This document shows positions 13,551 to 48,566 of a stretch of 64,000 bases of DNA, piece after piece; position 1 is the stretch's first letter, and each line of letters opens with the position of its first letter. The DNA is from Agelas oroides. Lineage: Eukaryota > Porifera > Demospongiae > Agelasida > Agelasidae. A program made the translations under genes and the position numbers. Location of the stretch: the NCBI GenBank assembly GCA_949130485.1, contig OX422189.1, positions 2,303,720-2,367,719 of the forward strand, read 5' to 3'. A model generated the notes under the pieces. It did no database searches and was not told the origin of the DNA. It was given only the letters and a program-made list of their open reading frames with translations.

Positions 13551-14547
13551 GTGAGTTAAAATTTAGCAATCTGAATGTTTTTGTTCAAGTCTTGCTGGCA
13601 AAATTATGCTTATGTGGGTTTACATCTCATACAACTATGGGACACTTGACACTTCTGCATGTAAAGTGGAACTGCTCTAAAGCAAACAGCCTTGGGAACA
13701 AAATGTGCATGTCCTGATTAGCAACTGCCTTCATTTTAGGGGGAGAATGATGGTCAAGGTTAATTTTATTTTCAAGGGTGTCCTTTAAATTACCACATAG
13801 GCCATTCTCCTTTGTGGCCTGGTTACCCACCTAGCTCACTATGTAGTATTGTGCCCAGCCTGCGCATGCCTCCCGGTGAGAAATGGTCTGATGAACAAAG
13901 TCGGATTTCTTGGGCTTTTTCCCCAAAAGTGGTAAGGACCAATGAGATTGCGAGATTGGTAATTATTACGTATCACTTCCCTTACAACTGTAAAACTTTT
14001 ATCTCTACTCAAGAATCCATACCGAGTGGGTTTGGTGTAAAATGAAATTCAACTTGGTTCACCAGACTGTTTCTCCTCATGAGAGGGTGGGGTCTGGGGA
14101 CGAGACTACCAACAATGTTCCACATTGTTGTTGAGTTGGAGGTTATATTGCCTTCAGTGCCAGAAAGTAACCTCGTTCCCAGGCTCTCCCCTCGCCCCGA
14201 CGAAAGTAAAAGCGGAGGGGAGAGCCTGGGAACAAGGCTAGCCAGAAAGGAAGCTGCTACAAGATGAAAGGAGCTTTTTCTAGGCTGATTCCCAAAGGTG
14301 GAGAGAATGACCCACCCAGTGTCAACCCTGGTTTTTATAGAGCAAAGCTTAAAGCAAAGCAGCAGCCAAGTGATTTTCACCCTGCTTGCAAGCTCATTAA
14401 CGAGTGGGTGCAGTTAGAGTTGTGAAGCAACGCAGGATGGCTGCATGTGTTAAGGTTTGAAGTAAGACAAAACTGGGAACTATGATACAGGTTCCACAGG
14501 TTAAAGTGACTCTAAAAAATAAGGCCAAATTAATGGGTTTCATTAGA
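13551..14547 (+). other. Unique 5' part of giant intron 6
   Basis: About 1 kb of ordinary intron DNA lies between the exon 6 donor GTGAGT (13551) and the first satellite monomer. It contains the MITE at 14168-14240 and, at about 14079-14108, a half-copy of the same family (GGTCTGGGGACGAGACTA). No exon was recognised. Confidence 0.6.
14168..14240. mobile_element. 73-bp MITE of the TAGYCTCG family, 9-bp target duplication
   Basis: The ends TAACCTCGTTCCCAGGCTCT and the inverted GCCTGGGAACAAGGCTA pair over about 30 bp. The direct repeat GCCAGAAAG flanks it exactly at 14159-14167 and 14241-14249. It lies in intron 6, just before the satellite. Confidence 0.85.
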
Positions 14548-16081
14548 CAGCTTATCTTGCACGAAACCAGCCCCCTGACTGCTTGTCTCTGCATGAAACC
14601 AGCCCCCTGACTGCTTGTCTTGTATGAGACCAGCCACCTGACTGCTTGTCTTGCACGAGACCAGCCCCCTGACTGCTTGTCTTGTATGAGACCAGCCACC
14701 TGACTGCTTGTCTTGCATGAGACCAGCCCCCTGACTGCTTGTCTTGCACGAGACCAGCCCCCTGACTGCTTGTCTTGCACGAGACCAGCTACCTAACTGC
14801 TTGTCTTGCACGAGACCAGCCCCCTGACTGCTTGTGTTTGGACGAGACCAGGCCCCTCCTGACTTCTCATCTCTGCCTGAATGCTTGTCTTGCATGAGAC
14901 CAGCCCTCTGACTGCTTGTCTTGCACGAGACCAGCCCTCTGACTTCTTGTCTTACACGAGACCAGCCCCCTGAATGCTTGTCTTGCACGAGACCAGCCCC
15001 CTGACAGCTTGTCTTGCACGAGACCAGCCCCTGACGGCTTGTCTTGCACGACACCAGCTCCCTGACTACTTGTCTTGCACGAGACCAGCCCCCTTACTGC
15101 TTGTGTTTGGACGAGACCAGGCCCCCCTGACAGAACATCTCTGCCTGACTGCTTGTCTTGCATGAGACCAGCCCTCTGACTGCTTGTCTTGCACGATACC
15201 TGCACCTGACAGTTTGTCTTGCACGATACCAGCCCCTTGACTGCTTGTCTTGCACGAGACCAGCCCCCTGACTGATTGTCTTGCACGGCTCCAGCTCCCT
15301 GACTTCTTGTCTTGCACGAGACCAGCCCCCTGACTGATTGTCTTGCACGGCTCCAGCTCCCTGACTTCTTGTCTTGCATGAGACCAGCCCCCTTACTGTG
15401 TTTGTGTTTGGACGAGACCAGGCCCCTGACTTCTCATCTCTGCCGAGACCAGCTACTTGACTGCTTGTCTTGCACGAGACCAGCCCTCTGATTGCTTGTC
15501 TTGCATGAGACCAGCCCCCTGTCTGCTTGTCTTGCACGAGACCAGCCCCCTGACTGCTTGTCTTGCGCGAGACCAGCCCCCTGACTGCTTATCTTGCACG
15601 AGACCAGCCCCCTGACTGCTTATCTTGCACGAGACCATTCCCCTGACAGCTTGTCTTGCACGAGACCAGCCCCCTTACTGCTTGTCTTGCTCGAGACCAG
15701 CCCCATCACTGCTTGTCTTGCACGAGACCAGCTCCCTGACTGCTTGTCTCTGCCGAGACCAGCTAGTCTTACACAAGAGCAGCCCCCTGACTGCTTGTCT
15801 CTGCACGAAACCAGCCTCTTCTCTGCTTGCTTTGCACGAGACCAGCACCCTGACGGCTTGTCTTGCACGAGACCAGCCACCTGACTGCTTGTCTTGCACG
15901 AGACCAGCCCCCTGACTGCTTGTATATGGACTAGACCAGACCCCTCACTTCTTGTCTTGCACTACACCAGCCACCTAACTGTTTGTCTTGCACGAGATCA
16001 CTTCTTGTCTTGCGCTAGACCAGCCACCTAACTGCACGAGACCAGCCCCCTGACTGCTTGTCTTGCACGAGATCAGCCCCC

Positions 16082-16655
16082 TCACTGCTTGTCTTGCACG
16101 AGACCAGCCCCCTGACTTCTTGTCTTACACGAGACCAGCTCCCTGACTGCTTGTCTTGCACGAGACCTGCCCCTGACTGCTTGTCTTGCACGAGACCAGC
16201 CCCCTGACTGCTTGTCTTGCACGAGACCAGCCACCTGACTGCTTGTCTTGCACGAGACCAGCCCCTTGACTACTTGTCTTGCACGAGACCAGCCCCCTGA
16301 CTGCTTGTCTTGCACTAGAACAGCCCCCTGACTGCTTGTCTTGCACGAGACCAGCTACCTGACTGCTAGTCTTGCACGAGATCAGCCCCCTCACTGCTTG
16401 TCTTGCACGAGACCAGCCCCCTGACTTCTTGTCTTACACGAGACCAGCTCCCTGACTGCTTGTCTTGCACGAGACCTGCCCCTGACTGCTTGTCTTGCAC
16501 GAGACCAGCCCCCTGACTGCTTGTCTTGCACGAGACCAGCCACCTGACTGCTTGTCTTGCACGAGACCAGCCCCTTGACTACTTGTCTTGCACGAGACCA
16601 GCCCCCTGACTGCTTGTCTTGCACAAGACCTATCCCCTGACTGCTTGTCTTGCAC
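16082..16655. repeat. Local higher-order repeat, 309-bp period
   Basis: Within the satellite, 16082-16315 and 16391-16624 carry the same order of variant monomers and translate identically over 77 residues, an offset of 309 bp (ten monomers). It is a small, recent tandem duplication near the left side of the array. Confidence 0.7.
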
Positions 16656-22652: not shown

Positions 22653-25600
22653 TTGCACGAGACCGTTCACCTGACTGCTTGTCTTGCACGAGACCAGCTA
22701 CCTGACTGCTTGTCTTGCACTAGACCTGTCCCCTTACTGCTTGTCTTGCACGAGACCAGCCCCCTCACTGCTTGTCTTGCACGAGACCAGCTACCTAACT
22801 GCTTGTCTTGCACAAGATCAGCTACCTCACTGCTAGTCTTGCATAAAACCATCTCCCTGACTGCTTGTCTTGCACGAGACCAGCCCCCTGACTGCTTATC
22901 TTGCACGATACCAGCATCCTGACTGCTTCTCTTGCACGAGACGAACGCCCTGACTGCTTGTCTTGCACGAGACCAGCCCCCTGACTGCTTGTCTTGCAAG
23001 AGACCAGCCTTGTGACTGCTTATCATGTATGGGACCAGCACCCTGACTGCTTGTATCTGTACGAGACCATTCCCCTGACTGCTTGTCTTGCACGAGACCA
23101 GCCTCTTGACTGCTTGTCTTGCACGAAACCAGCCCCCTGACTGCTTGTCTTGCACGAGACCAGCCCCCTGACTGCTTGTATCTGCACGAGACCAGCCCCC
23201 TGACTGCTTGTATCTGCACGAGACCAGCCCCCTGACTGCTTGTCTTGCACGAGACCAGCCCCCTGACTGCTTGTCTTGCAAGAGACCAGCCTTGTGACTG
23301 CTTATCTTGTATGGGACCAGCACCCTGACTGCTTTTATCTGTACGAGACCATTCCCCTGACTGCTTGTCTTGCACGAGACAAGCCCCCTGACTGCTTGTC
23401 TTGCACGAGACCAGCCCCCTGACTGCTTGTCTTGCACGAGACCAGCCCCCTGACTGCTTGTCTTGCACGAGACCAGCCCCCTGACTGCTTGTATCTGCAC
23501 GAGACCAGCCCCCTGACTGCTTGTCTTGCACGAGACCGGCCCCCTGACTGCTTGTATCTGCACGAGACCAGCCCCCTGACTGCTTGTCTTGCACGAGACC
23601 AGCCCCTTAACTGCTTGTCTTGCACGAGACCATCCTTGTGACTGCTTATCTTGCACGAGACCAGCCTTGTCACTGCTTGTCTTGCACGGGACCAGGCTTG
23701 TGACTGCTTATCTTGTATGGGACCAGCCCCCTGACTGCTTGTATCTGCACAAGACAAGCCCCCTGACTGCTTGTCTTGCACGAGACCAGCCCCCTGACTG
23801 CTTGTCTTGTATGAGACCAGCCCCCTGACTGCTTGTATCTGCACGAGACCAGCCCCCTGACTGCTTATCTTGCACGAGACCAGCACCCTGACGGCTTGTC
23901 TTGCACGAGACCAGCCCCCTAACTGCTTGTATCTGCACGAGACCAGCCCCCTCACTGCTTGTCTTGCACGAGACCTGTCCCCTGACTGCTTGTCTTGCAC
24001 TAGACCAGCCACCTGACTGCTTGTCTTGCACGAGACCAGCCCCTTAACTGCTTGTCTTGCACAAGACCAGCCTTGTCACTGCTTGTATCTGCATGAGACC
24101 ATCACCCTGATCGCTTGTCTCTGCCATGACCAGCTATCTGACTGCTTGTCTTGCACTAGACCAGCCCCCTGACTGCTTGTCTTGCACGAGACCAGTCTCG
24201 TGACTGCTTGTCTTGCACGAGACCAGCCCCCTGACTACTTATCTTGCGATAGACCAGCACCCTGACTGCTTGTCTTGCACGAGACCAGCTACCTGACTGC
24301 TTATCTTGCACGAGACCAGCCCCCTAACTGCTTGTATCTGCACGAGACCAGCCCCCTGGCTGCTTGTCGTGCACTAGACCAGCCCCCTGACTGCTTGTCT
24401 TGCACGAGACCAGCTCCCTGACTGCTTTTATCTGCACGAGACCAGACCCCTGACTGCTTGTCTTGCACTAGACCAGCCACCTGACTGCTTGTCTTGCACG
24501 AGACCAGCCCCTTAACTGCTTGTCTTGCACGAGACCAGCCTTGTCACTGCTTGTATCTACATGAGACCATCACCCTGATCGCTTGTCTCTGCCGTGACCA
24601 GCTATCTGACTGCTTGTCTTGCACGAGACCAGCCCCCTGACTGCTTGTCTTGCACGAGACCAGCCTCGTGACTGCTTGTCTTGCACGAGACCAGCCCCCT
24701 GACTACTTATCTTGCGATAGACCAGCACCCTGACTGCTTGTCTTGCACGAGACCAGCTACCTGACTGCTTATCTTGCACGAGACCAGCACCCTGACTGCT
24801 TGTCTTGCACGAGACCAGCTACCTGACTGCTTATCTTGCACGAGACCAGCACCCTGACTGCTTGTCTTGCACGAGACGAACGCCCTGACTGCTTGTCTTG
24901 CACGAGACCAGCTCCCTGACTGCTTGTATCTGCACGAGACCAGCCACCTGACTGCTTGTCTTGCACGAGACCAGCCCCTTAACTGCTTGTCTTGCACGAG
25001 ACCAGCCTTGTCACTGCTTGTATCTGCATGAGACCATCACCCTGATTGCTTGTCTCTGCCGTGACCAGCTATCTGACTGTTTGTCTTGCACGAGACCAGC
25101 CCTGACTGCTTGTCTTGCACGAGACCAGCCTCGTGACTGCTTGTCTTGAACGAGACCAACCCCCTGACTGCTTGTCTTGCACGAGACCAGCCCCCTGACT
25201 GCTTGTCTTGCACGAGACCAGCCCCCTCACTGCTTGACGTGACCAGCCCCCTCACTGCTTGACGTGACCAGCCTCGTGACTGCTTATCTTGCACGAGACC
25301 AGGCCCCTGATTGCTTGTCGTGCGCTAGACCAGCCTCCTGACGGCTTGTCTTGCACGAGACCAACCCCCTGACTGCTTGTCTTGCACGAGACCATGCTTG
25401 TCTTGCACGAGACCAGCATTGTGACTGCTTATCTTGCATGGGACCAGCCCCCTGACTGCTTGTATCTGCACGAGACCAGCCCCCTGACTGCTTGTCTTGC
25501 ACGAGACCATTCCCCTGACTGCTTGTCTTGCACTAGACAAGCACCCTGACTGCTTGTCTTGCACGAGACCAGCCCCTTGACTGCTTGTCTTGTATGAGAC

Positions 25601-28600
25601 CAGCCCCCTGAATGCTTGTATCTGCACGAGACCAGCCCCCTGACTGCTTGTATCTGCACGAGACCAGCCCCCTGACTGCTTGTCTTGCACGAGACCATTC
25701 CCCTGACTGCTTGTCTTGCACTAGACAAGCACCCTGACTGCTTGTCTTGCACGAGACCAGCCCCTTGACTGCTTGTCTTGTATGAGACCAGCCCCCTGAA
25801 TGCTTGTATCTGCACGAGACCAGCCCCCTGACTGCTTGTCTTGCACGAGACCAGCACCCTGACGGCTTGTCTTGCACGAGACCAGCCTTGTCACTGCTTG
25901 TCTTGCACGAGACCAGGCTTGTGACTGCTTATCTTGTATGGGACCAGCCCCCTGACTGCTTGTATCTGCACGAGAGAAGCCCCCTGACTGCTTGTCTTGC
26001 ACGAGACCAGCCCCCTGACTGCTTGTCTTGCACGAGACCAGCACCCTGACTGCTTGTCTTGCACGAGACGAACGCCCTGACTGCTTGTCTTGCACGAGAC
26101 CAGCTCCCTGACTGCTTGTATCTGCACGAGACCAGACCCCTGGCTGCTTGTCGTGCACTAGACCAGCCCCCTGACTGCTTGTCTTGCACGAGACCAGCTC
26201 CCTGACTGCTTGTATCTGCACGAGACCAGACCCCTGACTGCTTGTCTTGCACTAGACCAGCCACCTGACTGCTTGTCTTGCACGAGACCAGCCCCTTAAC
26301 TGCTTGTCTTGCACGAGACCAGCCTTGTCACTGCTTGTATCTGCATGAGACCATCACCCTGATCGCTTGTCTCTGCCATGACCAGCTATCTGACTGGTTG
26401 TCTTGCACTAGACCAGCCCCCTGACTGCTTGTCTTGCACGAGACCAGCCTCGTGACTGCTTGTCTTGCACGAGACCAGCCCCCTGACTACTTATCTTGCG
26501 ATAGACCAGCACCCTGACTGCTTGTCTTGCACGAGACCAGCTACCTGACTGCTTATCTTGCACGAGACCAGCACCCTGACTGCTTGTCTTGCACGAGACG
26601 AACGCCCTGACTGCTTGTCTTGCACGAGACCAGCTCCCTGACTGCTTGTATCTGCACGAGACCAGACCCCTGGCTGCTTGTCGTGCACTAGACCAGCCCC
26701 CTGACTGCTTGTCTTGCACGAGACCAGCTCCCTTACTGCTTGTATCTACACGAGACCAGACCCCTGACTGCTTGTCTTGCACTAGACCAGCCACCTGACT
26801 GCTTGTCTTGCACGAGACCAGCCCCTTAACTGCTTGTCTTGCACGAGACCAGCCTTGTCACTGCTTGTATCTGCATGAGACCAGACCCCTGACTGCTTGT
26901 CTTGCACTAGACCAGCCACCTGACTGCTTGTCTTGCACGAGACCAGCCCCTTAACTGCTTGTCTTGCACGAGACCAGCCTTGTCCCTGCTTGTATCTGCA
27001 TGAGACCATCACCCTGATCGCTTGTCTCTGCCATGACCAGCTATCTGACTGCTTGTCTTGCACGAGACCAGCCCCCTGACTGCTTGTCTTGCACGAGACC
27101 AGCCTCGTGACTGCTTGTCTTGCACGAGACCAGCCCCCTGACTACTTATCTTGCGATAGACCAGCACCCTGACTGCTTGTCTTGCACGAGACCAGCTACC
27201 TGACTGCTTATCTTGCACGAGACCAGCCCCCTGACTGCTTGTCTTGCACGAGACCAGCCTCGTGACTGCTTGTCTTGCACGAGACCAGCCTCTTGACAGC
27301 TTGTCTTGCACGAGACCAGGCTTGTGACTGCTTATCTTGTATGGGACCAACCCCCTGACTCATTGTCTTGCACGAGACCAACCCCCTGACTGCTTGTCTT
27401 GCACGAGACCATGCTTGTCTTGAACAAGACCAGCATTGTGACTGCTTATCTTGCATGGGACCAGCCCCCTGACTGCTTGTATCTGCACGAGACCAGTCCC
27501 CTGACTGCTTGTCTTGCACGAGACCATTCCCCTGACTGCTTGTCTTGCACGAGACAAGCCCCCTGACTGCTTGTCTTGCACGAGACCAGCCCCCTGACTG
27601 CTTGTCTTGTATGAGACCAGCCCCCTGAATGCTTGTATCTGCATGAGACCAGCCCCCTGACTGCTTGTCTTGCAAGAGACCAGCACCCTGATGGCTTGTC
27701 TTGCACGAGACCAGCCCCCTAACTGCTTGTATCTGCACGAGACCAGCCCCCTCACTGCTTGTCTTGCACGAGACCTGTCCCCTGACTGCTTGTCTTGCAC
27801 TAGACCAGCCACCTGACTGCTTGTCTTGCACGAGACCAGCCCCTTAACTGCTTGTCTTGCACAAGACCAGCCTTGTCACTGCTTGTATCTGCATGAGACC
27901 ATCACCCTGATCGCTTGTCTCTGCCGTGACCAGCTATCTGACTGCTTGTCTTGCATGAGACCAGCCCCCTGACTGCTTGTCTTGCACGAGACCAGCCTCG
28001 TGACTGCTTGTCTTGAACGAGACCAACCCCCTGACTGCTTGTCTTGCACGAGACCAGCCCCCTGACTGCTTGTCTTGCACGAGACCAGCCCCCTCACTGC
28101 TTGACGTGACCAGCCTCGTGACTGCTTATCTTGCACGAGACCAGCCCCCTGACTGCTTGTCTTGCACGAGACCAGCCTCCTGACAGCTTTTCTTGCACGA
28201 GACCAACCCCCTGACTGCTTGTCTTGCACGAGACCATGCTTGTCTTGCACGAGACCAGCATTGTGACTGCTTATCTTGCATGGGACCAGCCCCCTGACTG
28301 CCTGTATCTGCACGAGACCAGACCCCTGACTGCTTGTCTTGCACGAGACCATTCCCCTGACTGCTTGTCTTGCACGAGACAAGTCCCCTGACTGCTTGTC
28401 TTGCACGAGACCAGCCTCGTGACTGCTTGTCTTGCACGAGACGAACGCCCTGACTGCTTGTCTTGCATGAGACCAGCTCCCTGACTGCTTGTATCTGCAC
28501 GAGACCAGACCCCTGGCTGCTTGTCGTGCACTAGACCAGCCCCCTGACTGCTTGTCTTGCACGAGACCAGCTCCCTAACTGCTTGTATCTGCACGAGACC

Positions 28601-31600
28601 AGACCCCTGACTGCTTGTCTTGCACGAGACCAGCTCCCTCACTGCTTGTCTTGCACGAGACCAACCCCCTGACTGCTTGTCTTGCACGAGACCAACCTCC
28701 TGACTGCTTGTCTTGCACGAGACCATGCTTGTCTTGCACGAGACCAGCATTGTGACTGCTTATCTTGCATGGGACCAGCCCCCTGACTGCTTGTATCTGC
28801 ACGAGACCAGCCCCCTGACTGCTTGTCTTGCACGAGACCATTCCCCTGACTGCTTGTCTTGCACGAGACCAGCCTCGTGACTGCTTGTCTTGAACGAGAC
28901 CAACCCCCTGACTGCTTGTCTTGCACGAGACCAGCCCCCTCACTGCTTGACGTGACCAGCCTCGTGACTGCTTATCTTGCACGAGACCAGCCCCCTGACT
29001 GCTTGTCTTGCGCGAGACCAGCCTCCTGACGGCTTGTCTTGCACGAGACCACCCCCCTGACTGCTTGTTTTGCACGAGACCAACCCCCTGACTGCTTGTC
29101 TTGCACGAGACCAGCTACCTGACTGCTTGTCTTGCACGAGACAAGCCCCCTGACTGCTTGTCTTGCACAAGACCAGCCCCCTGACTGCTTGTCTTGTATG
29201 AGACCAGCCCCCTGACTGCTTGTCTTGTATGAGACCAGCCCCCTGAATGCTTGTATCTGCACGAGACCAGCCCCCTGACTGCTTGTCTTGCACGAGACCA
29301 GCACCCTGACGGCTTGTCTTGCACTAGACCAGCCCCCTGACTGCTTGTCTTGCACGAGACCGTTCACCTGACTGCTTGTCTTGCACGAGACCAGCTACCT
29401 GACTGCTTGTATCTGCACGAGACCAGACCCCTGGCTGCTTGTCGTGCACTAGACCAGCCCCCTGACTGCTTGTCATGCACGAGACCAGCTCCCTGACTGC
29501 TTGTATCTGCACGAGACTAGACCCCTGACTGCTTGTCTTGCACTAGACCAGCCACCTGACTGCTTGTCTTGCACGAGACCAGCCCCTTAACTGCTTGTCT
29601 TGCACGAGACCAGCCTTGTCACTGCTTGTATCTGCAATAGACCATCACCCTGATCGCTTTTCTCTGCCGTGACCAGCTATCTGACTGCTTGTCTTGCACT
29701 AGACCAGCCACCTGACTGCTTGTCTTGCACGAGACCAGACCCCTGGCTGCTTGTCTTGCACGAGACCAGCCCCCTGACTGCTTGTCTTGTATGAGACCAG
29801 CCCCCTGAATGCTTGTATCTGCACGAGACCAGCCCCCTGACTGCTTGTCTTGCACGAGACCAGCACCCTGACGGCTTGTCTTGCACTAGACCAGCCCCCT
29901 GACTGCTTGTCTTGCACGAGACCGTTCACCTGACTGCTTGTCTTGCACGAGACCAGCTACCTGACTGCTTGTCTTGCACTAGACCTGTCCCCTTACTGCT
30001 TGTCTTGCACGAGACCAGCCCCCTCACTGCTTGTCTTGCACGAGACCAGCTACCTAACTGCTTGTCTTGCACAAGATCAGCTACCTCACTGCTAGTCTTG
30101 CATAAAACCATCTCCCTGACTGCTTGTCTTGCACGAGACCAGCCCCCTGACTGCTTATCTTGCACGATACCAGCATCCTGACTGCTTCTCTTGCACGAGA
30201 CGAACGCCCTGACTGCTTGTCTTGCACGAGACCAGCCCCCTGACTGCTTGTCTTGCAAGAGACCAGCCTTGTGACTGCTTATCATGTATGGGACCAGCAC
30301 CCTGACTGCTTGTATCTGTACGAGACCATTCCCCTGACTGCTTGTCTTGCACGAGACCAGCCTCTTGACTGCTTGTCTTGCACGAAACCAGCCCCCTGAC
30401 TGCTTGTCTTGCACGAGACCAGCCCCCTGACTGCTTGTATCTGCACGAGACCAGCCCCCTGACTGCTTGTATCTGCACGAGACCAGCCCCCTGACTGCTT
30501 GTCTTGCACGAGACCAGCCCCCTGACTGCTTGTCTTGCAAGAGACCAGCCTTGTGACTGCTTATCTTGTATGGGACCAGCACCCTGACTGCTTTTATCTG
30601 TACGAGACCATTCCCCTGACTGCTTGTCTTGCACGAGACAAGCCCCCTGACTGCTTGTCTTGCACGAGACCAGCCCCCTGACTGCTTGTCTTGCACGAGA
30701 CCAGCCCCCTGACTGCTTGTCTTGCACGAGACCAGCCCCCTGACTGCTTGTATCTGCACGAGACCAGCCCCCTGACTGCTTGTCTTGCACGAGACCGGCC
30801 CCCTGACTGCTTGTATCTGCACGAGACCAGCCCCCTGACTGCTTGTCTTGCACGAGACCAGCCCCTTAACTGCTTGTCTTGCACGAGACCATCCTTGTGA
30901 CTGCTTATCTTGCACGAGACCAGCCTTGTCACTGCTTGTCTTGCACGGGACCAGGCTTGTGACTGCTTATCTTGTATGGGACCAGCCCCCTGACTGCTTG
31001 TATCTGCACAAGACAAGCCCCCTGACTGCTTGTCTTGCACGAGACCAGCCCCCTGACTGCTTGTCTTGTATGAGACCAGCCCCCTGACTGCTTGTATCTG
31101 CACGAGACCAGCCCCCTGACTGCTTATCTTGCACGAGACCAGCACCCTGACGGCTTGTCTTGCACGAGACCAGCCCCCTAACTGCTTGTATCTGCACGAG
31201 ACCAGCCCCCTCACTGCTTGTCTTGCACGAGACCTGTCCCCTGACTGCTTGTCTTGCACTAGACCAGCCACCTGACTGCTTGTCTTGCACGAGACCAGCC
31301 CCTTAACTGCTTGTCTTGCACAAGACCAGCCTTGTCACTGCTTGTATCTGCATGAGACCATCACCCTGATCGCTTGTCTCTGCCATGACCAGCTATCTGA
31401 CTGCTTGTCTTGCACTAGACCAGCCCCCTGACTGCTTGTCTTGCACGAGACCAGTCTCGTGACTGCTTGTCTTGCACGAGACCAGCCTTGTCACTGCTGG
31501 TATCTGCATGAGACCATCACCCTGATCGCTTGTCTCTGCCGTGACCAGCTATCTGACTGCTTGTCTTGCACGAGACCAGCCACCTGACTGCTTGTCTTGC

Positions 31601-34600
31601 ACGAGACCAGCCTCGTGACTGCTTGTCTTGCACGAGACCAGCCTCGTGACTGCTTGTCTTGCACGAGACCAGCTCCCTGACTGCTTGTATCTGCACGAGA
31701 CCAGACCCCTGGCTGCTTGTCGTGCACTAGACCAGCCCCCTGACTGCTTGTCTTGCATGAGACCAGCTCCCTGACTGCTTGTATCTGCACGAGACCAGAC
31801 CCCTGACTGCTTGTCTTGCACTAGACCAGCCACCTGACTGCTTGTCTTGCACGAGACCAGCCCCTTAACTGCTTGTCTTGCACGAGACCAGCCTTGTCAC
31901 TGCTTGTATCTGCATGAGACCATCACCCTGATCGCTTGTCTCTGCCGTGACCAGCTATCTGACTGGTTGTCTTGCACTAGACCAGCCACCTGACTGCTTG
32001 TCTTGCACGAGACCAGACCCCTGGCTGCTTGTCGTGCACTAGACCAGTCCCCTGACTGCTTGTCTTGCACGAGACCAGCACCCTGACTGCTTGTCTTGCA
32101 CTAGACCAGCTCCCTGACTGCTTGTCTTGCACGAGACCAGCCCCCTGACTGCTTGTCTTGCATGAGATCAGCTCCCTGACTGCTTGTCTTGCACGAGACC
32201 AGCTACCTGACTGCTTGTCTTGCACTAGACCAGCCCCCTGACTGCTTGTCTTGCACGAGACCAGCTACCTGACTGCTTGTCTTGCACGAGACAAGCCCCC
32301 TGACTGCTTGTCTTGCACAAGACCAGCCCCCTGACTGCTTGTCTTGTATGAGACCAGCCCCCTGACTGCTTGTCTTGTATGAGACCAGCCCCCTGAATGC
32401 TTGTATCTGCACGAGACCAGCCCCCTGACTGCTTGTCTTGCACGAGACCAGCACCCTGACGGCTTGTCTTGCACTAGACCAGCCCCCTGACTGCTTGTCT
32501 TGCACGAGACCGTTCACCTGACTGCTTGTCTTGCACGAGACCAGCTACCTGACTGCTTGTATCTGCACGAGACCAGACCCCTGGCTGCTTGTCGTGCACT
32601 AGACCAGCCCCCTGACTGCTTGTCATGCACGAGACCAGCTCCCTGACTGCTTGTATCTGCACGAGACTAGACCCCTGACTGCTTGTCTTGCACTAGACCA
32701 GCCACCTGACTGCTTGTCTTGCACGAGACCAGCCCCTTAACTGCTTGTCTTGCACGAGACCAGCCTTGTCACTGCTTGTATCTGCAAGAGACCATCACCC
32801 TGATCGCTTTTCTCTGCCGTGACCAGCTATCTGACTGCTTGTCTTGCACTAGACCAGCCACCTGACTGCTTGTCTTGCACGAGACCAGACCCCTGGCTGC
32901 TTGTCTTGCACGAGACCAGCCCCCTGACTGCTTGTCTTGTATGAGACCAGCCCCCTGAATGCTTGTATCTGCACGAGACCAGCCCCCTGACTGCTTGTCT
33001 TGCACGAGACCAGCACCCTGACGGCTTGTCTTGCACTAGACCAGCCCCCTGACTGCTTGTCTTGCACGAGACCGTTCACCTGACTGCTTGTCTTGCACGA
33101 GACCAGCTACCTGACTGCTTGTCTTGCACTAGACCTGTCCCCTTACTGCTTGTCTTGCACGAGACCAGCCCCCTCACTGCTTGTCTTGCACGAGACCAGC
33201 TACCTAACTGCTTGTCTTGCACAAGATCAGCTACCTCACTGCTAGTCTTGCATAAAACCATCTCCCTGACTGCTTGTCTTGCACGAGACCAGCCCCCTGA
33301 CTGCTTATCTTGCACGATACCAGCATCCTGACTGCTTCTCTTGCACGAGACGAACGCCCTGACTGCTTGTCTTGCACGAGACCAGCCCCCTGACTGCTTG
33401 TCTTGCAAGAGACCAGCCTTGTGACTGCTTATCATGTATGGGACCAGCACCCTGACTGCTTGTATCTGTACGAGACCATTCCCCTGACTGCTTGTCTTGC
33501 ACGAGACCAGCCTCTTGACTGCTTGTCTTGCACGAAACCAGCCCCCTGACTGCTTGTCTTGCACGAGACCAGCCCCCTGACTGCTTGTATCTGCACGAGA
33601 CCAGCCCCCTGACTGCTTGTATCTGCACGAGACCAGCCCCCTGACTGCTTGTCTTGCACGAGACCAGCCCCCTGACTGCTTGTCTTGCAAGAGACCAGCC
33701 TTGTGACTGCTTATCTTGTATGGGACCAGCACCCTGACTGCTTTTATCTGTACGAGACCATTCCCCTGACTGCTTGTTTTGCACGAGACAAGCCCCCTGA
33801 CTGCTTGTCTTGCACGAGACCAGCCTCTTGACTGCTTGTCTTGCACGAAACCAGCCCCCTGACTGCTTGTCTTGCACGAGACCAGCCCCCTGACTGCTTG
33901 TATCGGCACGAGACCAGCCCCCTGACTGCTTGTATCTGCACGAGACCAGCCCCCTGACTGCTTGTCTTGCACGAGACCAGCCCCCTGACTGCTTGTCTTG
34001 CAAGAGACCAGCCTTGTGACTGCTTATCTTGTATGGGACCAGCACCCTGACTGCTTTTATCTGTACGAGACCATTCCCCTGACTGCTTGTCTTGCACGAG
34101 ACAAGCCCCCTGACTGCTTGTCTTGCACGAGACCAGCCCCCTGACTGCTTGTCTTGCACGAGACCAGCCCCCTGACTGCTTGTCTTGCACGAGACCAGCC
34201 CCCTGACTGCTTGTATCTGCACGAGACCAGCCCCCTGACTGCTTGTCTTGCACGAGACCGGCCCCCTGACTGCTTGTATCTGCACGAGACCAGCCCCCTG
34301 ACTGCTTGTCTTGCACGAGACCAGCCCCTTAACTGCTTGTCTTGCACGAGACCATCCTTGTGACTGCTTATCTTGCACGAGACCAGCCTTGTCACTGCTT
34401 GTCTTGCACGGGACCAGGCTTGTGACTGCTTATCTTGTATGGGACCAGCCCCCTGACTGCTTGTATCTGCACAAGACAAGCCCCCTGACTGCTTGTCTTG
34501 CACGAGACCAGCCCCCTGACTGCTTGTCTTGTATGAGACCAGCCCCCTGACTGCTTGTATCTGCACGAGACCAGCCCCCTGACTGCTTATCTTGCACGAG

Positions 34601-37600
34601 ACCAGCACCCTGACGGCTTGTCTTGCACGAGACCAGCCCCCTAACTGCTTGTATCTGCACGAGACCAGCCCCCTCACTGCTTGTCTTGCACGAGACCTGT
34701 CCCCTGACTGCTTGTCTTGCACTAGACCAGCCACCTGACTGCTTGTCTTGCACGAGACCAGCCCCTTAACTGCTTGTCTTGCACAAGACCAGCCTTGTCA
34801 CTGCTTGTATCTGCATGAGACCATCACCCTGATCGCTTGTCTCTGCCATGACCAGCTATCTGACTGCTTGTCTTGCACTAGACCAGCCCCCTGACTGCTT
34901 GTCTTGCACGAGACCAGTCTCGTGACTGCTTGTCTTGCACGAGACCAGCCCCCTGACTACTTATCTTGCGATAGACCAGCACCCTGACTGCTTGTCTTGC
35001 ACGAGACCAGCTACCTGACTGCTTATCTTGCACGAGACCAGCCCCCTAACTGCTTGTATCTGCACGAGACCAGCCCCCTGGCTGCTTGTCGTGCACTAGA
35101 CCAGCCCCCTGACTGCTTGTCTTGCACGAGACCAGCTCCCTGACTGCTTTTATCTGCACGAGACCAGACCCCTGACTGCTTGTCTTGCACTAGACCAGCC
35201 ACCTGACTGCTTGTCTTGCACGAGACCAGCCCCTTAACTGCTTGTCTTGCACGAGACCAGCCTTGTCACTGCTTGTATCTGCATGAGACCATCACCCTGA
35301 TCGCTTGTCTCTGCCGTGACCAGCTATCTGACTGCTTGTCTTGCACGAGACCAGCCCCCTGACTGCTTGTCTTGCACGAGACCAGCCTCGTGACTGCTTG
35401 TCTTGCACGAGACCAGCCCCCTGACTACTTATCTTGCGATAGACCAGCACCCTGACTGCTTGTCTTGCACGAGACCAACTACCTGACTGCTTATCTTGCA
35501 CGAGACCAGCACCCTGACTGCTTGTCTTGCACGAGACCAGCTACCTGACTGCTTATCTTGCACGAGACCAGCACCCTGACTGCTTGTCTTGCACGAGACG
35601 AACGCCCTGACTGCTTGTCTTGCACGAGACCAGCTCCCTGACTGCTTGTATCTGCACGAGACCAGCCACCTGACTGCTTGTCTTGCACGAGACCAGCCCC
35701 TTAACTGCTTGTCTTGCACGAGACCAGCCTTGTCACTGCTTGTATCTGCATGAGACCATCACCCTGATTGCTTGTCTCTGCCGTGACCAGCTATCTGACT
35801 GTTTGTCTTGCACGAGACCAGCCCTGACTGCTTGTCTTGCACGAGACCAGCCTCGTGACTGCTTGTCTTGAACGAGACCAACCCCCTGACTGCTTGTCTT
35901 GCACGAGACCAGCCCCCTGACTGCTTGTCTTGCACGAGACCAGCCCCCTCACTGCTTGACGTGACCAGCCCCCTCACTGCTTGACGTGACCAGCCTCGTG
36001 ACTGCTTATCTTGCACGAGACCAGGCCCCTGATTGCTTGTCGTGCGCTAGACCAGCCTCCTGACGGCTTGTCTTGCACGAGACCAACCCCCTGACTGCTT
36101 GTCTTGCACGAGACCATGCTTGTCTTGCACGAGACCAGCATTGTGACTGCTTATCTTGCATGGGACCAGCCCCCTGACTGCTTGTATCTGCACGAGACCA
36201 GCCCCCTGACTGCTTGTCTTGCACGAGACCATTCCCCTGACTGCTTGTCTTGCACTAGACAAGCACCCTGACTGCTTGTCTTGCACGAGACCAGCCCCTT
36301 GACTGCTTGTCTTGTATGAGACCAGCCCCCTGAATGCTTGTATCTGCACGAGACCAGCCCCCTGACTGCTTGTATCTGCACGAGACCAGCCCCCTGACTG
36401 CTTGTCTTGCACGAGACCATTCCCCTGACTGCTTGTCTTGCACTAGACAAGCACCCTGACTGCTTGTCTTGCACGAGACCAGCCCCTTGACTGCTTGTCT
36501 TGTATGAGACCAGCCCCCTGAATGCTTGTATCTGCACGAGACCAGCCCCCTGACTGCTTGTCTTGCACGAGACCAGCACCCTGACGGCTTGTCTTGCACG
36601 AGACCAGCCTTGTCACTGCTTGTCTTGCACGAGACCAGGCTTGTGACTGCTTATCTTGTATGGGACCAGCCCCCTGACTGCTTGTATCTGCACGAGAGAA
36701 GCCCCCTGACTGCTTGTCTTGCACGAGACCAGCCCCCTGACTGCTTGTCTTGCACGAGACCAGCACCCTGACTGCTTGTCTTGCACGAGACGAACGCCCT
36801 GACTGCTTGTCTTGCACGAGACCAGCTCCCTGACTGCTTGTATCTGCACGAGACCAGACCCCTGGCTGCTTGTCGTGCACTAGACCAGCCCCCTGACTGC
36901 TTGTCTTGCACGAGACCAGCTCCCTGACTGCTTGTATCTGCACGAGACCAGACCCCTGACTGCTTGTCTTGCACTAGACCAGCCACCTGACTGCTTGTCT
37001 TGCACGAGACCAGACCCCTGGCTGCTTGTCTTGCACGAGACCAGCCCCCTGACTGCTTGTCTTGTATGAGACCAGCCCCCTGAATGCTTGTATCTGCACG
37101 AGACCAGCCCCCTGACTGCTTGTCTTGCACGAGACCAGCACCCTGACGGCTTGTCTTGCACTAGACCAGCCCCCTGACTGCTTGTCTTGCACGAGACCGT
37201 TCACCTGACTGCTTGTCTTGCACGAGACCAGCTACCTGACTGCTTGTCTTGCACTAGACCTGTCCCCTTACTGCTTGTCTTGCACGAGACCAGCCCCCTC
37301 ACTGCTTGTCTTGCACGAGACCAGCTACCTAACTGCTTGTCTTGCACAAGATCAGCTACCTCACTGCTAGTCTTGCATAAAACCATCTCCCTGACTGCTT
37401 GTCTTGCACGAGACCAGCCCCCTGACTGCTTATCTTGCACGATACCAGCATCCTGACTGCTTCTCTTGCACGAGACGAACGCCCTGACTGCTTGTCTTGC
37501 ACGAGACCAGCCCCCTGACTGCTTGTCTTGCAAGAGACCAGCCTTGTGACTGCTTATCATGTATGGGACCAGCACCCTGACTGCTTGTATCTGTACGAGA

Positions 37601-40600: not shown

Positions 40601-43600
40601 AGACCAGCCCCTTGACTGCTTGTCTTGTATGAGACCAGCCCCCTGAATGCTTGTATCTGCACGAGACCAGCCCCCTGACTGCTTGTCTTGCACGAGACCA
40701 GCACCCTGACGGCTTGTCTTGCACGAGACCAGCCTTGTCACTGCTTGTCTTGCACGAGACCAGGCTTGTGACTGCTTATCTTGTATGGGACCAGCCCCCT
40801 GACTGCTTGTATCTGCACGAGAGAAGCCCCCTGACTGCTTGTCTTGCACGAGACCAGCCCCCTGACTGCTTGTCTTGCACGAGACCAGCACCCTGACTGC
40901 TTGTCTTGCACGAGACGAACGCCCTGACTGCTTGTCTTGCACGAGACCAGCTCCCTGACTGCTTGTATCTGCACGAGACCAGACCCCTGGCTGCTTGTCG
41001 TGCACTAGACCAGCCCCCTGACTGCTTGTCTTGCACGAGACCAGCTCCCTGACTGCTTGTATCTGCACGAGACCAGACCCCTGACTGCTTGTCTTGCACT
41101 AGACCAGCCACCTGACTGCTTGTCTTGCACGAGACCAGCCCCTTAACTGCTTGTCTTGCACGAGACCAGCCTTGTCACTGCTTGTATCTGCATGAGACCA
41201 TCACCCTGATCGCTTGTCTCTGCCATGACCAGCTATCTGACTGGTTGTCTTGCACTAGACCAGCCCCCTGACTGCTTGTCTTGCACGAGACCAGCCTCGT
41301 GACTGCTTGTCTTGCACGAGACCAGCCCCCTGACTACTTATCTTGCGATAGACCAGCACCCTGACTGCTTGTCTTGCACGAGACCAGCTACCTGACTGCT
41401 TATCTTGCACGAGACCAGCACCCTGACTGCTTGTCTTGCACGAGACGAACGCCCTGACTGCTTGTCTTGCACGAGACCAGCTCCCTGACTGCTTGTATCT
41501 GCACGAGACCAGACCCCTGGCTGCTTGTCGTGCACTAGACCAGCCCCCTGACTGCTTGTCTTGCACGAGACCAGCTCCCTGACTGCTTGTATCTACACGA
41601 GACCAGACCCCTGACTGCTTGTCTTGCACTAGACCAGCCACCTGACTGCTTGTCTTGCACGAGACCAGCCCCTTAACTGCTTGTCTTGCACGAGACCAGC
41701 CTTGTCACTGCTTGTATCTGCATGAGACCAGACCCCTGACTGCTTGTCTTGCACTAGACCAGCCACCTGACTGCTTGTCTTGCACGAGACCAGCCCCTTA
41801 ACTGCTTGTCTTGCACGAGACCAGCCTTGTCACTGCTTGTATCTGCATGAGACCATCACCCTGATCGCTTGTCTCTGCCATGACCAGCTATCTGACTGCT
41901 TGTCTTGCACGAGACCAGCCCCCTGACTGCTTGTCTTGCACGAGACCAGCCTCGTGACTGCTTGTCTTGCACGAGACCAGCCCCCTGACTACTTATCTTG
42001 CGATAGACCAGCACCCTGACTGCTTGTCTTGCACGAGACCAGCTACCTGACTGCTTATCTTGCACGAGACCAGCCCCCTGACTGCTTGTCTTGCACGAGA
42101 CCAGCCTCGTGACTGCTTGTCTTGCACGAGACCAGCCTCTTGACAGCTTGTCTTGCACGAGACCAGGCTTGTGACTGCTTATCTTGTATGGGACCAACCC
42201 CCTGACTCATTGTCTTGCACGAGACCAACCCCCTGACTGCTTGTCTTGCACGAGACCATGCTTGTCTTGAACAAGACCAGCATTGTGACTGCTTATCTTG
42301 CATGGGACCAGCCCCCTGACTGCTTGTATCTGCACGAGACCAGTCCCCTGACTGCTTGTCTTGCACGAGACCATTCCCCTGACTGCTTGTCTTGCACGAG
42401 ACAAGCCCCCTGACTGCTTGTCTTGCACGAGACCAGCCCCCTGACTGCTTGTCTTGTATGAGACCAGCCCCCTGAATGCTTGTATCTGCATGAGACCAGC
42501 CCCCTGACTGCTTGTCTTGCAAGAGACCAGCACCCTGATGGCTTGTCTTGCACGAGACCAGCCCCCTAACTGCTTGTATCTGCACGAGACCAGCCCCCTC
42601 ACTGCTTGTCTTGCACGAGACCTGTCCCCTGACTGCTTGTCTTGCACTAGACCAGCCACCTGACTGCTTGTCTTGCACGAGACCAGCCCCTTAACTGCTT
42701 GTCTTGCACAAGACCAGCCTTGTCACTGCTTGTATCTGCATGAGACCATCACCCTGATCGCTTGTCTCTGCCGTGACCAGCTATCTGACTGCTTGTCTTG
42801 CATGAGACCAGCCCCCTGACTGCTTGTCTTGCACGAGACCAGCCTCGTGACTGCTTGTCTTGAACGAGACCAACCCCCTGACTGCTTGTCTTGCACGAGA
42901 CCAGCCCCCTGACTGCTTGTCTTGCACGAGACCAGCCCCCTCACTGCTTGACGTGACCAGCCTCGTGACTGCTTATCTTGCACGAGACCAGCCCCCTGAC
43001 TGCTTGTCTTGCACGAGACCAGCCTCCTGACAGCTTTTCTTGCACGAGACCAACCCCCTGACTGCTTGTCTTGCACGAGACCATGCTTGTCTTGCACGAG
43101 ACCAGCATTGTGACTGCTTATCTTGCATGGGACCAGCCCCCTGACTGCCTGTATCTGCACGAGACCAGACCCCTGACTGCTTGTCTTGCACGAGACCATT
43201 CCCCTGACTGCTTGTCTTGCACGAGACAAGTCCCCTGACTGCTTGTCTTGCACGAGACCAGCCTCGTGACTGCTTGTCTTGCACGAGACGAACGCCCTGA
43301 CTGCTTGTCTTGCATGAGACCAGCTCCCTGACTGCTTGTATCTGCACGAGACCAGACCCCTGGCTGCTTGTCGTGCACTAGACCAGCCCCCTGACTGCTT
43401 GTCTTGCACGAGACCAGCTCCCTAACTGCTTGTATCTGCACGAGACCAGACCCCTGACTGCTTGTCTTGCACGAGACCAGCTCCCTCACTGCTTGTCTTG
43501 CACGAGACCAACCCCCTGACTGCTTGTCTTGCACGAGACCAACCTCCTGACTGCTTGTCTTGCACGAGACCATGCTTGTCTTGCACGAGACCAGCATTGT
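22653..43600. repeat. Multi-kilobase duplicated blocks within the satellite
   Basis: Long strings of variant monomers recur in the same order. The block starting at 22653 recurs at 29912, 33062 and 37187. The block at about 24570-26220 recurs at 35292 and 39417. The block at about 26408-28750 recurs at 41255. The block at 29115-29930 recurs at 32265-33080. Offsets are 7,259, 3,150, 4,125, 10,722 and 14,847 bp. Predicted translations of matching blocks are identical or nearly so over up to 329 residues, so the copies are young or homogenised. Confidence 0.85.
32849..41115. repeat. 4,125-bp tandem duplication inside the satellite
   Basis: Reading frames from 32849 to about 36990 reappear at +4,125 (33076 at 37201, 34430 at 38555, 36443 at 40568) with the same lengths and sequences. 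The two copies are directly adjacent. The match ends at about 36990/41115, where frames begin to differ. Confidence 0.8.
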
Positions 43601-46600
43601 GACTGCTTATCTTGCATGGGACCAGCCCCCTGACTGCTTGTATCTGCACGAGACCAGCCCCCTGACTGCTTGTCTTGCACGAGACCATTCCCCTGACTGC
43701 TTGTCTTGCACGAGACCAGCCTCGTGACTGCTTGTCTTGAACGAGACCAACCCCCTGACTGCTTGTCTTGCACGAGACCAGCCCCCTGACTGCTTGTTTT
43801 GCACGAGACCAGCCCCCTCACTGCTTGACGTGACCAGCCTCGTGACTGCTTATCTTGCACGAGACCAGCCCCCTGACTGCTTGTCTTGCGCGAGACCAGC
43901 CTCCTGACGGCTTGTCTTGCACGAGACCACCCCCCTGACTGCTTGTTTTGCACGAGACCAACCCCCTGACTGCTTGTCTTGCACGAGACCAACCCCCTGA
44001 CTGCTTGTCTTGCACGAGACCAACCCCCTGACTGCTTGTCTTGCATGAGACAAGCCCCCTGACTGCTTGTCTTGCACGAGACCAACCCCCTGACTGCTTG
44101 TCTTGCACGAGACCAACCCCCTGACTGCTTGTCTTGTACGAGACCAGCCTTGTCACTGCTTGTATCTGCATGAGACCATCATCCTGATCGCTTGTCTCTG
44201 CCGTGACCAGCTATATGACTGCTTGTCTTGCACGAGACCAGCCCCCTGACTGCTTGTCTTGCACGAGACCAGCCTCGTGACTGCTTGTCTTGCACGAGAC
44301 CAGGCTTGTGACTGCTTATCTTGTATGGGACCAACCCCCTGACTGCTTGTCTTGCACGAGACCAACCCCCTGACTGCTTGTCTTGCACGAGACCATGCTT
44401 GTCTTGCACAAGACAAGCATTGTGACTGCTTATCTTGCATGGGACCAGCCCCCTGACTGCTTGTATCTGCACGAGACCAGCCCCCTGACTGCTTGTCTTG
44501 CACGAGACCATTCCCCTGACTGCTTGTCTTGCACGAGACAAGCCCCCTGACTGCTTGTTTTGCACGAGACCAACCCCCTGACTGCTTGTCTTGCACGAGA
44601 CCAACCCCCTGACTGCTTGTCTTGCACGAGACCAACCCCCTGACTGCTTGTCTTGCACGAGACCAGCCCCCTGACTGCTTGTCTTGCATGAGACCAGCCC
44701 CCTGACTGCTTGTCTTGCACGAGACCAAACCCCTGACTGCTTGTCTTGCACGAGACCAACCCCCTGACTGCTTGTCTTGTACGAGACCAGCCTTGTCACT
44801 GCTTGTATCTGCATGAGACCATCATCCTGATCGCTTGTCTCTGCCGTGACCAGCTATCTGACTGCTTGTCTTGCACGAGACCAGCCCCCTGACTGCTTGT
44901 CTTGCACGAGACCAGCCTCGTGACTGCTTGTCTTGCACGAGACCAGGCTTGTGACTGCTTATCTTGTATGGGACCAACCCCCTGACTGCTTGTCTTGCAC
45001 GAGACCAACCCCCTGACTGCTTGTCTTGCACGAGACCAACCCCCTGACTGCTTGTCTTGCACGAGACCATGCTTGTCTTGCACAAGACAAGCATTGTGAC
45101 TGCTTATCTTGCATGGGACCAGCCCCCTGACTGCTTGTATCTGCACGAGACCAGCCCCCTGACTGCTTGTCTTGCACGAGACCATTCCCCTGACTGCTTG
45201 TCTTGCACGAGACAAGCCCCCTGAATGCTTGTTTTGCACGAGACCAAGCCTCGTGACTGCTTGTCTTGCACGAGACCAGGCTTGTGACTGCTTTTCTTGT
45301 ATGGGACCAACCCCCTGACTGCTTGTCTTGCACGAGACCAACCCCCTGACTGCTTGTCTTGCACGAGACCAACCCCCTGACTGCTTGTCTTGCACGAGAC
45401 CATGCTTGTCTTGCACAAGACAAGCATTGTGACTGCTTATCTTGCATGGGACCAGCCCCCTGACTGCTTGTATCTGCACGAGACCAGCCCCCTGACTGCT
45501 TGTCTTGCACGAGACCATTCCCCTGACTGCTTGTCTTGCACGAGACAAGCCCCCTGACTGCTTGTTTTGCACGAGACCAACCCCCTGACTGCTTGTCTTG
45601 CACGAGACCAACCCCCTGACTGCTTGTCTTGCACGAGACCAACCCCCTGACTGCTTGTCTTGCACGAGACCATGCTTGTCTTGCACGAGACCAGCATTGT
45701 GACTGCTTATCTTGCATGGGACCAGCCCCCTGACTGCTTGTATCTGCACGAGACCAGCCCCCTGACTGCTTGTCTTGCACGAGACCATTCCCCTGACTGC
45801 TTGTCTTGCACGAGACAAGCCCCCTGACTGCTTGTCTTGCACGAGACCAGCCCCCGGATTGCTTGTCTTGCACGAGACCAGCACCCTACGGCTTGTCTTG
45901 CATGAGACCAGCCCCCTAACTGCTTGTATCTGCACGAGACCAACCCCTTAACTGCTTGTCTTGCACGAGACCAGCCTTGTCACTGCTTGTATCGGCATGA
46001 GACCATCACCCTGATCGCTTGTCTCTGCCGTGACCAGCTATCTGATTGCTTGTCTTGCACGAGACCAGCCCACTGACTGCTTGTCTTGCACGAGACCAGC
46101 CTCGTGACTGCTTGTCTTGCACGAGACCAACCCCCTGACTGCTTGTCTTGCACGAGACCAGCCCCCTGACTGCTTGTCTTGCACGAGACCAGCCCCCTGA
46201 CTGCTTGTCTTGCACGAGACCAACCCCCTGACTGCTTGTCTTGCACGAGACCAACCCCCTGACTGCTTGTCTTGTACGAGACCAGCCTTGTCACTGCTTG
46301 TATCTGCATGAGACCATCATCCTGATCGCTTGTCTCTGCCGTGACCAGCTATCTGACTGCTTGTCTTGCACGAGACCAGCCCCCTGACTGCTTGTCTTGC
46401 ACGAGACCAGCCTCGTGACTGCTTGTCTTGCACGAGACCAGGCTTGTGACTGCTTATCTTGTATGGGACCAACCCCCTGACTGCTTGTCTTGCACGAGAC
46501 CAACCCCCTGACTGCTTGTCTTGCACGAGACCATGCTTGTCTTGCACAAGACAAGCATTGTGACTGCTTATCTTGCATGGGACCAGCCCCCTGACTGCTT

Positions 46601-48566
46601 GTATCTGCACGAGACCAGCCCCCTGACTGCTTGTCTTGCACGAGACCATTCCCCTGACTGCTTGTCTTGCACGAGACAAGCCCCCTGACTGCTTGTCTTG
46701 CACGAGACAAGCCCCCTGACTGCTTGTCTTGCACGAGACCAGCCCCCTGACTGCTTGTCTTGTATGAGACCAGCTCCCTGAATGCTTGTATCTGCACGAG
46801 ACCAGCCCCCTGACTGCTTGTCTTGCAAGAGACCAGCACCCTGATGGCTTGTCTTGCACGAGACCAGCCCCCTAACTGCTTGTATCTGCACGAGACCAGC
46901 CCCCTCACTGCTTGTCTTGCACGAGACCTGTCCCCTGACTGCTTGTCTTGCACTAGACCAGCCACCTGACTGCTTGTCTTGCACGAGACCAGCCCCTTAA
47001 CTGCTTGTCTTGCACGAGACCAGCCTTGTCACTGCTTGTATCTGCATGAGACCATCACCCTGATCGCTTTTCTCTGCCGTGACCAGCTATCTGACTGCTT
47101 GTCTTGCACGAGACCAGCCCCCTGACTGCTTGTCTTGCACGAGACCAGCCTCGTGACTGCTTGTCTTGAACGAGACCAACCCCCTGACTGCTTGTCTTGC
47201 ACGAGACCAGCCCCCTGACTGTTTGTCTTGCACGAGACCAGCCCCCTCACTGCTTGACGTGACCAGCCTCGTGACTGCTTATCTTGCACGAGACCAGCCC
47301 CCTGACTGCTTGTCTTGCGCAAGACCAGCCTCCTGACGGCTTGTCTTGCACGAGACCAACCCCCTGACTGCTTGTCTTGCACGAGACCAACCCCCTGACT
47401 GCTTGTCTTGCACGAGACCAACCCCCTGACTGCTTGTCTTGCACGAGACCAACCCTCTGACTGCTTGTCTTGCACGAGACCAGCCTTGTGACTGCTTATC
47501 TTGCACGAGACCAGCCTTGTCACTGCTTGTATCTGCATGAGACCATCACCCTGATCGCTTGTCTCTGCCGTGACCAGCTATGTGACTGCTTGTCTTGCAC
47601 GAGACCAGCTCCCTGACTGCTTGTCTTGCACGAGATCAGCCTCGTGACTGCTTGTCTTGCACGAGACCAGCCCCCTGACTGCTTGTCTTTCACGAGACAA
47701 GCTCCCTCACTGCTTGTCTTGCACTAGACCAGCCCCCTGACTGCTTGTCTTGCACGAGACCAGTCCCCTGACTGCTTGTCTTGCACTAGACCAGCCCCCT
47801 GACTGCTTGTCGTGCCCCGTAACTGGTTGTCTTTCGCGAGACCAGCCCCCTGACTGCTTGTATCTGCATGAGACCAGTCTCATGATTGCTTGTTTTGCAC
47901 GAGACCAGCTACCTGACTGCTTATCTTGCACGAGACCAGCTACCTGACTGCTTGTCTTGCACGAGACCAGCCCCCTGACTGCTTGTCTTGCACGAGACCA
48001 GCTCCCTGACTGCTTGTCTTGCACGATACCAGTCACCTGACTGCTTGTCTTGCACGAGACCAGCCACCTGACTGCTTGTCTTGCACGAGACCAGTCACCT
48101 GACTGCTAGTCTTGCACGAGACCAGCTCCCTGAGTGCTAGTCTTGCACGAGACTAGCCCCCTGACTGCTAGTCTTGCACGAGACCAGCCCCCTGACTGCT
48201 TGTCTTGCACGAGACCAGCCCCCTGACTGCTTGTGTCTGCACGAGCTAGATCAGCCCCCTGACTGCTTGTCTTGAACGACACCAGTCACCTGACTGCTTG
48301 TCTTGCATGAGACCAGCCCCCTGACTGCTTGTCTTGCACGAGACCAGCCACCTGACTGCTTGTCTTGCATAAGACCAGCCACCTGGCAATACCTCCGTTA
48401 GCAGCATGATGGTGATCACAACATCAAAATGTTGCAATAAAGCTAGAACAGTGAATACTCAGATAATGATTGTTGGGAAATCATGAACTGCTACTACCAT
48501 GACCCACCCATATCTGCCTCTTTGTTTCAACACAACAACTCTCCACTTACACACACTCTTGTACAG

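Follow-up and report, generated by a model that had tools for sequence, protein, structure and literature searches.

The esterase gene and its sixth intron

The window, by which we mean the whole 64-kb stretch of Agelas oroides DNA that was analysed, corresponds to 2.30-2.37 Mb of a 10.5-Mb contig, in an assembly of 259 Mb and 141 contigs, and does not contain any N. On its plus strand, from position 10825 to 55891, lies an esterase gene whose 19 exons join to 1,632 bp, or 544 codons, with no internal stop; its start codon and that of a neighbouring gene are 57 bp apart. All 18 introns begin with GT and end with AG. Apart from intron 6, which extends over 35,016 bp in phase 0 between exons 6 and 7, they measure between 64 and 1,600 bp (n = 17). 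The parts of the gene are as follows (window coordinates):

10825..10929, plus strand: exon 1, start codon; hydrophobic N-terminus, signal-peptide-like by eye
11192..11221, plus strand: exon 2
11287..11348, plus strand: exon 3
11551..11611, plus strand: exon 4
12959..13057, plus strand: exon 5
13497..13550, plus strand: exon 6, ends HGGNFIR, the oxyanion-hole motif
13551..48566, plus strand: intron 6, 35,016 bp, GT-AG, phase 0
48567..48716, plus strand: exon 7, begins GYSGG
48993..49142, plus strand: exon 8, GQSAG nucleophile elbow with Ser216
50743..50830, plus strand: exon 9
51539..51576, plus strand: exon 10
51652..51713, plus strand: exon 11
51888..51936, plus strand: exon 12
52001..52063, plus strand: exon 13
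52322..52381, plus strand: exon 14, Glu343
52453..52557, plus strand: exon 15
52786..52942, plus strand: exon 16
53555..53724, plus strand: exon 17, His446
54969..55043, plus strand: exon 18
55835..55891, plus strand: exon 19, stop codon; AATAAA after it at 55908

The esterase protein matched the Pfam COesterase profile (PF00135) with 415.1 bits, its residues 27 to 539 aligning with profile positions 3 to 515 of 515. In two alignments that we viewed, both to solved p-nitrobenzyl esterases, the exon 6/7 junction (HGGNFIR/GYSGG) was ungapped, so that the series of exons seems complete at this point. The HGGN motif from residue 131, together with Ser216, Glu343 and His446, shares columns with the catalytic motifs of p-nitrobenzyl esterase, the three residues occupying the nucleophile, acid and base positions, respectively. 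Judged by sequence, both the whole-domain profile match and the triad and HGG columns place the protein in the carboxylesterase family. A preliminary description of this DNA had reported the distance between exons 6 and 7, which proved exact to the base, the joining of 19 exons in phase to 544 residues with every catalytic residue kept, and remaining introns of mostly 70 bp to 1.6 kb; our results agree with all of these.

Searches of the genome with the esterase protein, with the profile and with a conserved 100-residue piece returned 14, 3 and 2 matches, respectively, all of them to this gene, and in these searches we found neither a second copy nor a sister copy free of the array. The searches were run exon by exon and scored the best candidates only, and a paralogue lying in short exons could escape them; moreover, the profile search recovered just three pieces of this gene, which indicates that its reach is short. 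As the gene is the sole match, exons 1-6 and exons 7-19 are most likely the two halves of one gene. Both halves are open and the GT and AG of every intron are kept, which supports the earlier view of a single gene harboring an array within an intron. With drift in the exons equal to that of the array units away from their consensus, about 5 stops should have arisen, and none was observed; this clock is soft, since arrays homogenise. Such intactness is indirect evidence that the gene may be under selection.

A private 31-bp minisatellite fills intron 6

Intron 6 and its array contain the following features:

13842..14108, no strand assigned: left flank of intron 6, dispersed repeat (~267 bp), from the genome search
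14546..48385, plus strand: 31-bp minisatellite array, ~1,095 units, private to the locus at up to 3 mismatches
23054..28958, plus strand: array block, in-register duplicate at 37901-43805, 19 mismatches in 5,905
32816..37050, plus strand: array block, in-register duplicate at 36941-41175, 14 mismatches in 4,235
48386..48566, plus strand: right flank of intron 6, contains the 3' splice site and one AATAAA at 48436

The array was found by TRF with a period of 31, 1,095 copies and a score of 44,320, far beyond chance, and a separate decomposition gave 1,096 units. With its 33,840 bp it makes up 96.6% of intron 6, confirming the previous estimates of about 97% repeat content and about 1,090 repeats; intron 6 is thus 35 kb long because a 31-base unit is repeated some 1,095 times. 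Full-length units free of indels number 821 of 1,096, and distinct unit rows number 241. With gaps excluded, mean divergence is 7.9% between a unit and the consensus and 13.9% between one unit and another. A period of 125 also appeared in the TRF list. Identity between units was nearly flat over distances of 1 to 140 units, with a single peak at 133 units, which corresponds to a duplication of 4,125 bp. The consensus unit carries one long G-run, on the antisense strand. By its sequence, the array is a minisatellite, that is, it consists of a 31-bp unit (within the range of roughly 10-100 bp) repeated head to tail inside one intron of an intact gene.

A genome-wide pattern search with the unit gave 544 matches when as many as 2 mismatches were allowed and 655 when as many as 3 were, with none on the reverse strand, and the array alone yielded exactly the same two counts. 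Since all 655 genome matches lie in this array, the unit represents a private, single-locus minisatellite rather than a dispersed satellite that landed in the gene. Membership in a dispersed satellite is hence ruled out at up to 3 mismatches, and the array departs from a classical satellite, whose family is common to several loci. Neither the remainder of the window, where 55 of 100 shuffled units reached the best match, nor a 200-kb genome sample, where 98 of 100 did so, yielded a proto-unit. The exact 26-base core of the unit had no match in viral and prokaryote genome contigs.

As for the surroundings, a genome search with the ~267-bp repeat to the left of the array returned 2,328 candidates at first look; 40 of them, including this place, were scored. 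Elsewhere in the window, TRF identified a 10-bp minisatellite at 6509-7236. With no more than 1 mismatch, a two-unit pattern of it matched the genome 2,265 times on the forward and 1,366 times on the reverse strand, the 100 matches listed being located on contigs C1 to C6. This minisatellite resembles a multi-contig family, in contrast to the private 31-bp unit. The genome sample consisted of 20 stretches of 10 kb (200,000 bases, of which 15,079 N) and contained 26,680 bases of tandem repeat. Two of the 20 stretches were mostly tandem arrays, one of a 10-bp minisatellite (L019) and the other of 5S rDNA (L027; 36 Rfam matches), so that a long non-rDNA array occurred in 1 of 20 stretches of this small sample.

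In-register duplications within the array

Six duplicated blocks of 5,905, 4,235, 3,275, 1,832, 1,765 and 1,332 bp were detected within the array, whose copies differ by 19, 14, 17, 14, 18 and 28 mismatches, respectively, the two copies of the largest block being 99.7% alike. All six are in unit register, as 189/189, 134/134, 103/103, 56/56, 54/54 and 40/40 unit starts coincide, and duplications are nested at offsets of 14,847, 4,125, 7,259 and 3,150 bp. The share of exactly repeated 100-mers was 0.72-1.0 in 2-kb bins from 22.5 to 44.5 kb; at the edges it was 0.16, 0.18 and 0.28 (bins one to three) and 0.14 (final bin). Mean identity to the consensus likewise reached its minimum at the ends, with 0.885 in the last bin and 0.897 in the first, versus up to 0.926. 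These values suggest a young centre with older edges, as unequal exchange between the units of an array would be expected to produce.

Scarcity of decoy signals on the sense strand

Splice matrices were built from the 18 sites of the gene itself, with the tenth percentile of their scores as cut-off. The sense strand of the array (33,840 bp) contained 2 donor-like and 4 acceptor-like sites, compared with 110 and 102, the gene's own included, on the plus strand outside the array (30,160 bp). Donor-like sites in the array numbered 2 on the sense versus 153 on the antisense strand, a difference which is a property of one ancestral unit and not of many independent events. Neither AATAAA nor ATTAAA was present in the array or in the left flank of intron 6. 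The right flank has a single AATAAA, which lies at 48436, past the array and ahead of exon 7, and could end transcripts early. In the consensus unit, nothing resembles a splice donor, a splice acceptor or a poly(A) site. When random 31-mers taken from the rest of the window were made tandem, 3,206 of 4,000 were equally silent, and splice silence was therefore rejected as a sign of selection; the paucity of decoy signals nonetheless makes the array easy to tolerate. The true sites of intron 6 are ordinary for this gene (donor 8.4, acceptor 9.4).

The unit also carries an imperfect palindrome, and its sense RNA is mildly stable, with z between -1.6 and -3.7 for ten 310-nt stretches, the antisense RNA giving z of -0.5 to -2.4 in 310-nt stretches; in both cases the reference was first-order Markov shuffles. 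Pairing did not exceed that expected from independence (mean observed minus expected -0.003; 9 positions, 241 distinct units), and two-sided changes occurred in 2 units only, at the sole position where the consensus is mismatched. A conserved hairpin in each unit was accordingly rejected. Antisense open frames of up to 383 codons from stop to stop run through the array, where the longest stop-free run on the sense strand is 99 codons. Antisense coding was rejected as well, as the consensus unit is stop-free on that strand and the stops of the real array (573) outnumber those of column shuffles (mean 481, maximum 509); sense coding was likewise rejected.

Origin of the array and alternative explanations

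We consider it highly probable that the array is a single-locus minisatellite which was born and grew in place in intron 6 of a functional-looking gene of the carboxylesterase family. Small tandem duplications would first have given rise to an array of 31-bp units, after which in-register unequal exchange or break repair would have copied blocks of 1-6 kb, and as this copying would have taken place mostly in mid-array, the centre would be young and the edges older. The gene would tolerate the array because it is intronic, its sense strand is almost devoid of splice sites and lacks AATAAA and ATTAAA, and the true sites of intron 6 remain. RNA polymerase II would transcribe the 35 kb, intron 6 would be removed in one step as an ordinary long intron, and the array itself would be neutral.

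Alternatively, the array could be a functional, length-dependent control element comparable to that of ABCA7, longer alleles of which would cut expression or skip exon 7. In line with such a role, the length of the human ABCA7 intron 18 variable number tandem repeat (VNTR) is described as correlating with lower expression and skipping of exon 19 (PMC6660495), and deletion of the TERT intron 6 VNTR is described as shifting splicing (PMC11830802). At the sponge locus, the multi-kb duplications with 99.7% identity suggest a recent change of length, and exon 7, at 150 bp and phase 0 on either side, could be skipped in frame, with the loss of 50 core residues. However, the hairpin of the unit is devoid of covariation and the true splice sites are ordinary, and we regard a control element as unlikely. 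We hold it to be quite unlikely that the array acts as a fast-changing rheostat, in which allele length, altered by multi-kb in-register duplications, would set the transcription time of the esterase and the efficiency of exon 6-7 splicing; if so, it would correspond to the intronic VNTR of ABCA7 while being over 3 times as long.

An assembly artefact, namely a real array whose length was inflated by stitched alleles or repeated passes, or a wrong joining of gene halves, appears decidedly unlikely. Blocks of up to 5.9 kb that are 99.7% alike fit two alleles as well as young duplications, and part of them may be two alleles set end to end by the assembler, which makes the copy number of the array uncertain; a wrong copy number is therefore possible. 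On the other hand, both halves come from the sole gene copy found, exact repeats are few at the array edges, and duplications nested at several different offsets are not what a single allelic stitch would give, so that a wrong join of the gene halves is very unlikely.

The preliminary description had further noted that satellites of this size are usually found in heterochromatin, and had proposed that one in a transcribed intron may carry a dedicated splicing or chromatin mechanism. A satellite of the heterochromatic type requiring such a mechanism was not supported. The CpG observed/expected ratio of the array (0.389) is close to those of the rest of the window (0.425) and of the genome sample (0.415), which would mean little sign of extra methylation decay, and no sign of dedicated machinery emerged from the tests of unit privacy, CpG, splice signals and hairpin, the silence of the unit being of a kind seen in random sequence. 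Fly genes whose largest intron is 50-100 kb are described as showing no attenuation under perturbed splicing, unlike megabase Y genes; that study also reports that splicing becomes harder as introns grow and that the polymerase is likely slowed by repeats (PMC11207136). We thus find it highly improbable that the array is a heterochromatic satellite or centromere-like domain requiring a dedicated factor in order to be transcribed, as Drosophila Y genes do with Blanks or Hephaestus: its length of 34 kb and the Drosophila precedent of satellite-bearing introns that need special RNA-binding proteins, described at megabase scale (PMC6508621), speak for it, while the confinement of the unit to a single locus, the unremarkable CpG ratio, the proximity of another gene's start codon and the behaviour of 50-100 kb fly introns all speak against it.

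Growth in place of a private minisatellite, if correct, suggests that a minisatellite can exceed 1,000 units within a gene whose protein is preserved, and can do so independently of any shared satellite family. The locus offers a clean natural test, as it combines one gene copy found, one private repeat and both array edges in one intron, and a comparison between individuals would show whether intron length made of repeats by itself affects expression. It also carries a warning for genome annotation, as gene-finding programs may cut a gene of this type apart where the array lies.

Comparison with known systems

Among open-licence PubMed Central papers, queries that were not directed at the species returned no title on this locus among the matches listed, which is a weak indication. 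Judged from one genome, the array appears to be a very long intronic minisatellite of the VNTR kind, and its nearest known relatives in kind are the human intronic VNTRs of ABCA7 and TERT and, at megabase scale, the Drosophila Y genes.

The ABCA7 intron 18 VNTR has a 25-bp unit and alleles ranging from 300 bp to slightly more than 10 kb, or ~400 units, according to PMC6857246 and PMC6660495. Like the sponge array, it is C-rich, has a similar unit length, resides in one intron of a protein-coding gene and shows kilobase-scale alleles and frequent unit variants, as far as these accounts describe it. It differs in unit sequence and in size, given the 34 kb and ~1,095 units found here. For ABCA7, alleles are described as varying in length and this variation as correlating with splicing; the sponge array is known from one genome sequence. 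TERT VNTR6-1, in intron 6, is described as having a 38-bp unit in 24-66.5 copies, with predicted G-quadruplexes, and as altering splicing (PMC11830802). It shares with our array the intronic position and a unit of 30-40 bp; in contrast to its predicted G-quadruplexes, each consensus unit here has one long antisense G-run.

The Drosophila Y chromosome is heterochromatic. Its gigantic genes kl-3 and kl-5 resemble the esterase gene in that long tandem-repeat introns occur in genes for needed proteins, as described in PMC6508621 and PMC11207136. They are unlike it in their megabase introns, in simple satellites partly common to Y genes and in the special RNA-binding proteins involved, the esterase intron being 35 kb long with a private repeat. 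Finally, TCAST of Tribolium provides another case of satellite-type repeats within gene introns, with 1,416 dispersed elements described in introns genome-wide (PMC5844308), in contrast to the one long private array of the sponge esterase gene.

Immediate neighbourhood of the esterase gene

Upstream, the 19-exon plus-strand carboxylesterase-family gene is flanked by an M20-family peptidase gene on the minus strand, which matches Pfam PF01546 with 78 bits and lies head to head with the esterase start (window 10765-10825). As only 57 bp separate the ATG codons of the two genes, they likely have a two-way promoter in common. Features of the flanks were as follows:

6509-7236, 10-bp minisatellite of the AGACACCATG type
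8054-8929, minus strand, ORF of 291 codons
9148-10776, minus strand, M20-family peptidase ORF (ORF scan and Pfam PF01546)
57662-59164, minus strand, glutamine-rich ORF (ORF scan)

Within esterase intron 6, a high-copy dispersed element occupies positions 13842-14108, and a single AATAAA (48436), found between the array end and exon 7, could possibly act as an early poly(A) site of the esterase. By eye, short inverted-repeat pieces whose ends are alike (resembling CTCGTTCCCAGGCT and its complement) were seen near 11.4, 14.2, 60.3 and 60.9 kb.

Other repeats in the window and on the contig

The glutamine-rich ORF returned no match in a Pfam search; it contains in frame a 12-bp repeat (57758-57965) encoding (MQPQ)n. 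Inspection by eye also revealed close copies at ~7.24-7.7 kb and ~8.17-8.65 kb, the second contained in the 291-codon ORF, as a partial local duplication (window 7240-8650). On the same contig as the window, one of the 20 sampled 10-kb genome stretches (L027; C7:4000000-4009999) is a 5S rDNA tandem array with a period of ~286 bp and 36 Rfam matches within its 10 kb.

The 10-bp minisatellite resembles a family with thousands of genome matches on at least 6 contigs, whereas the 31-bp unit of intron 6 is private to its locus.
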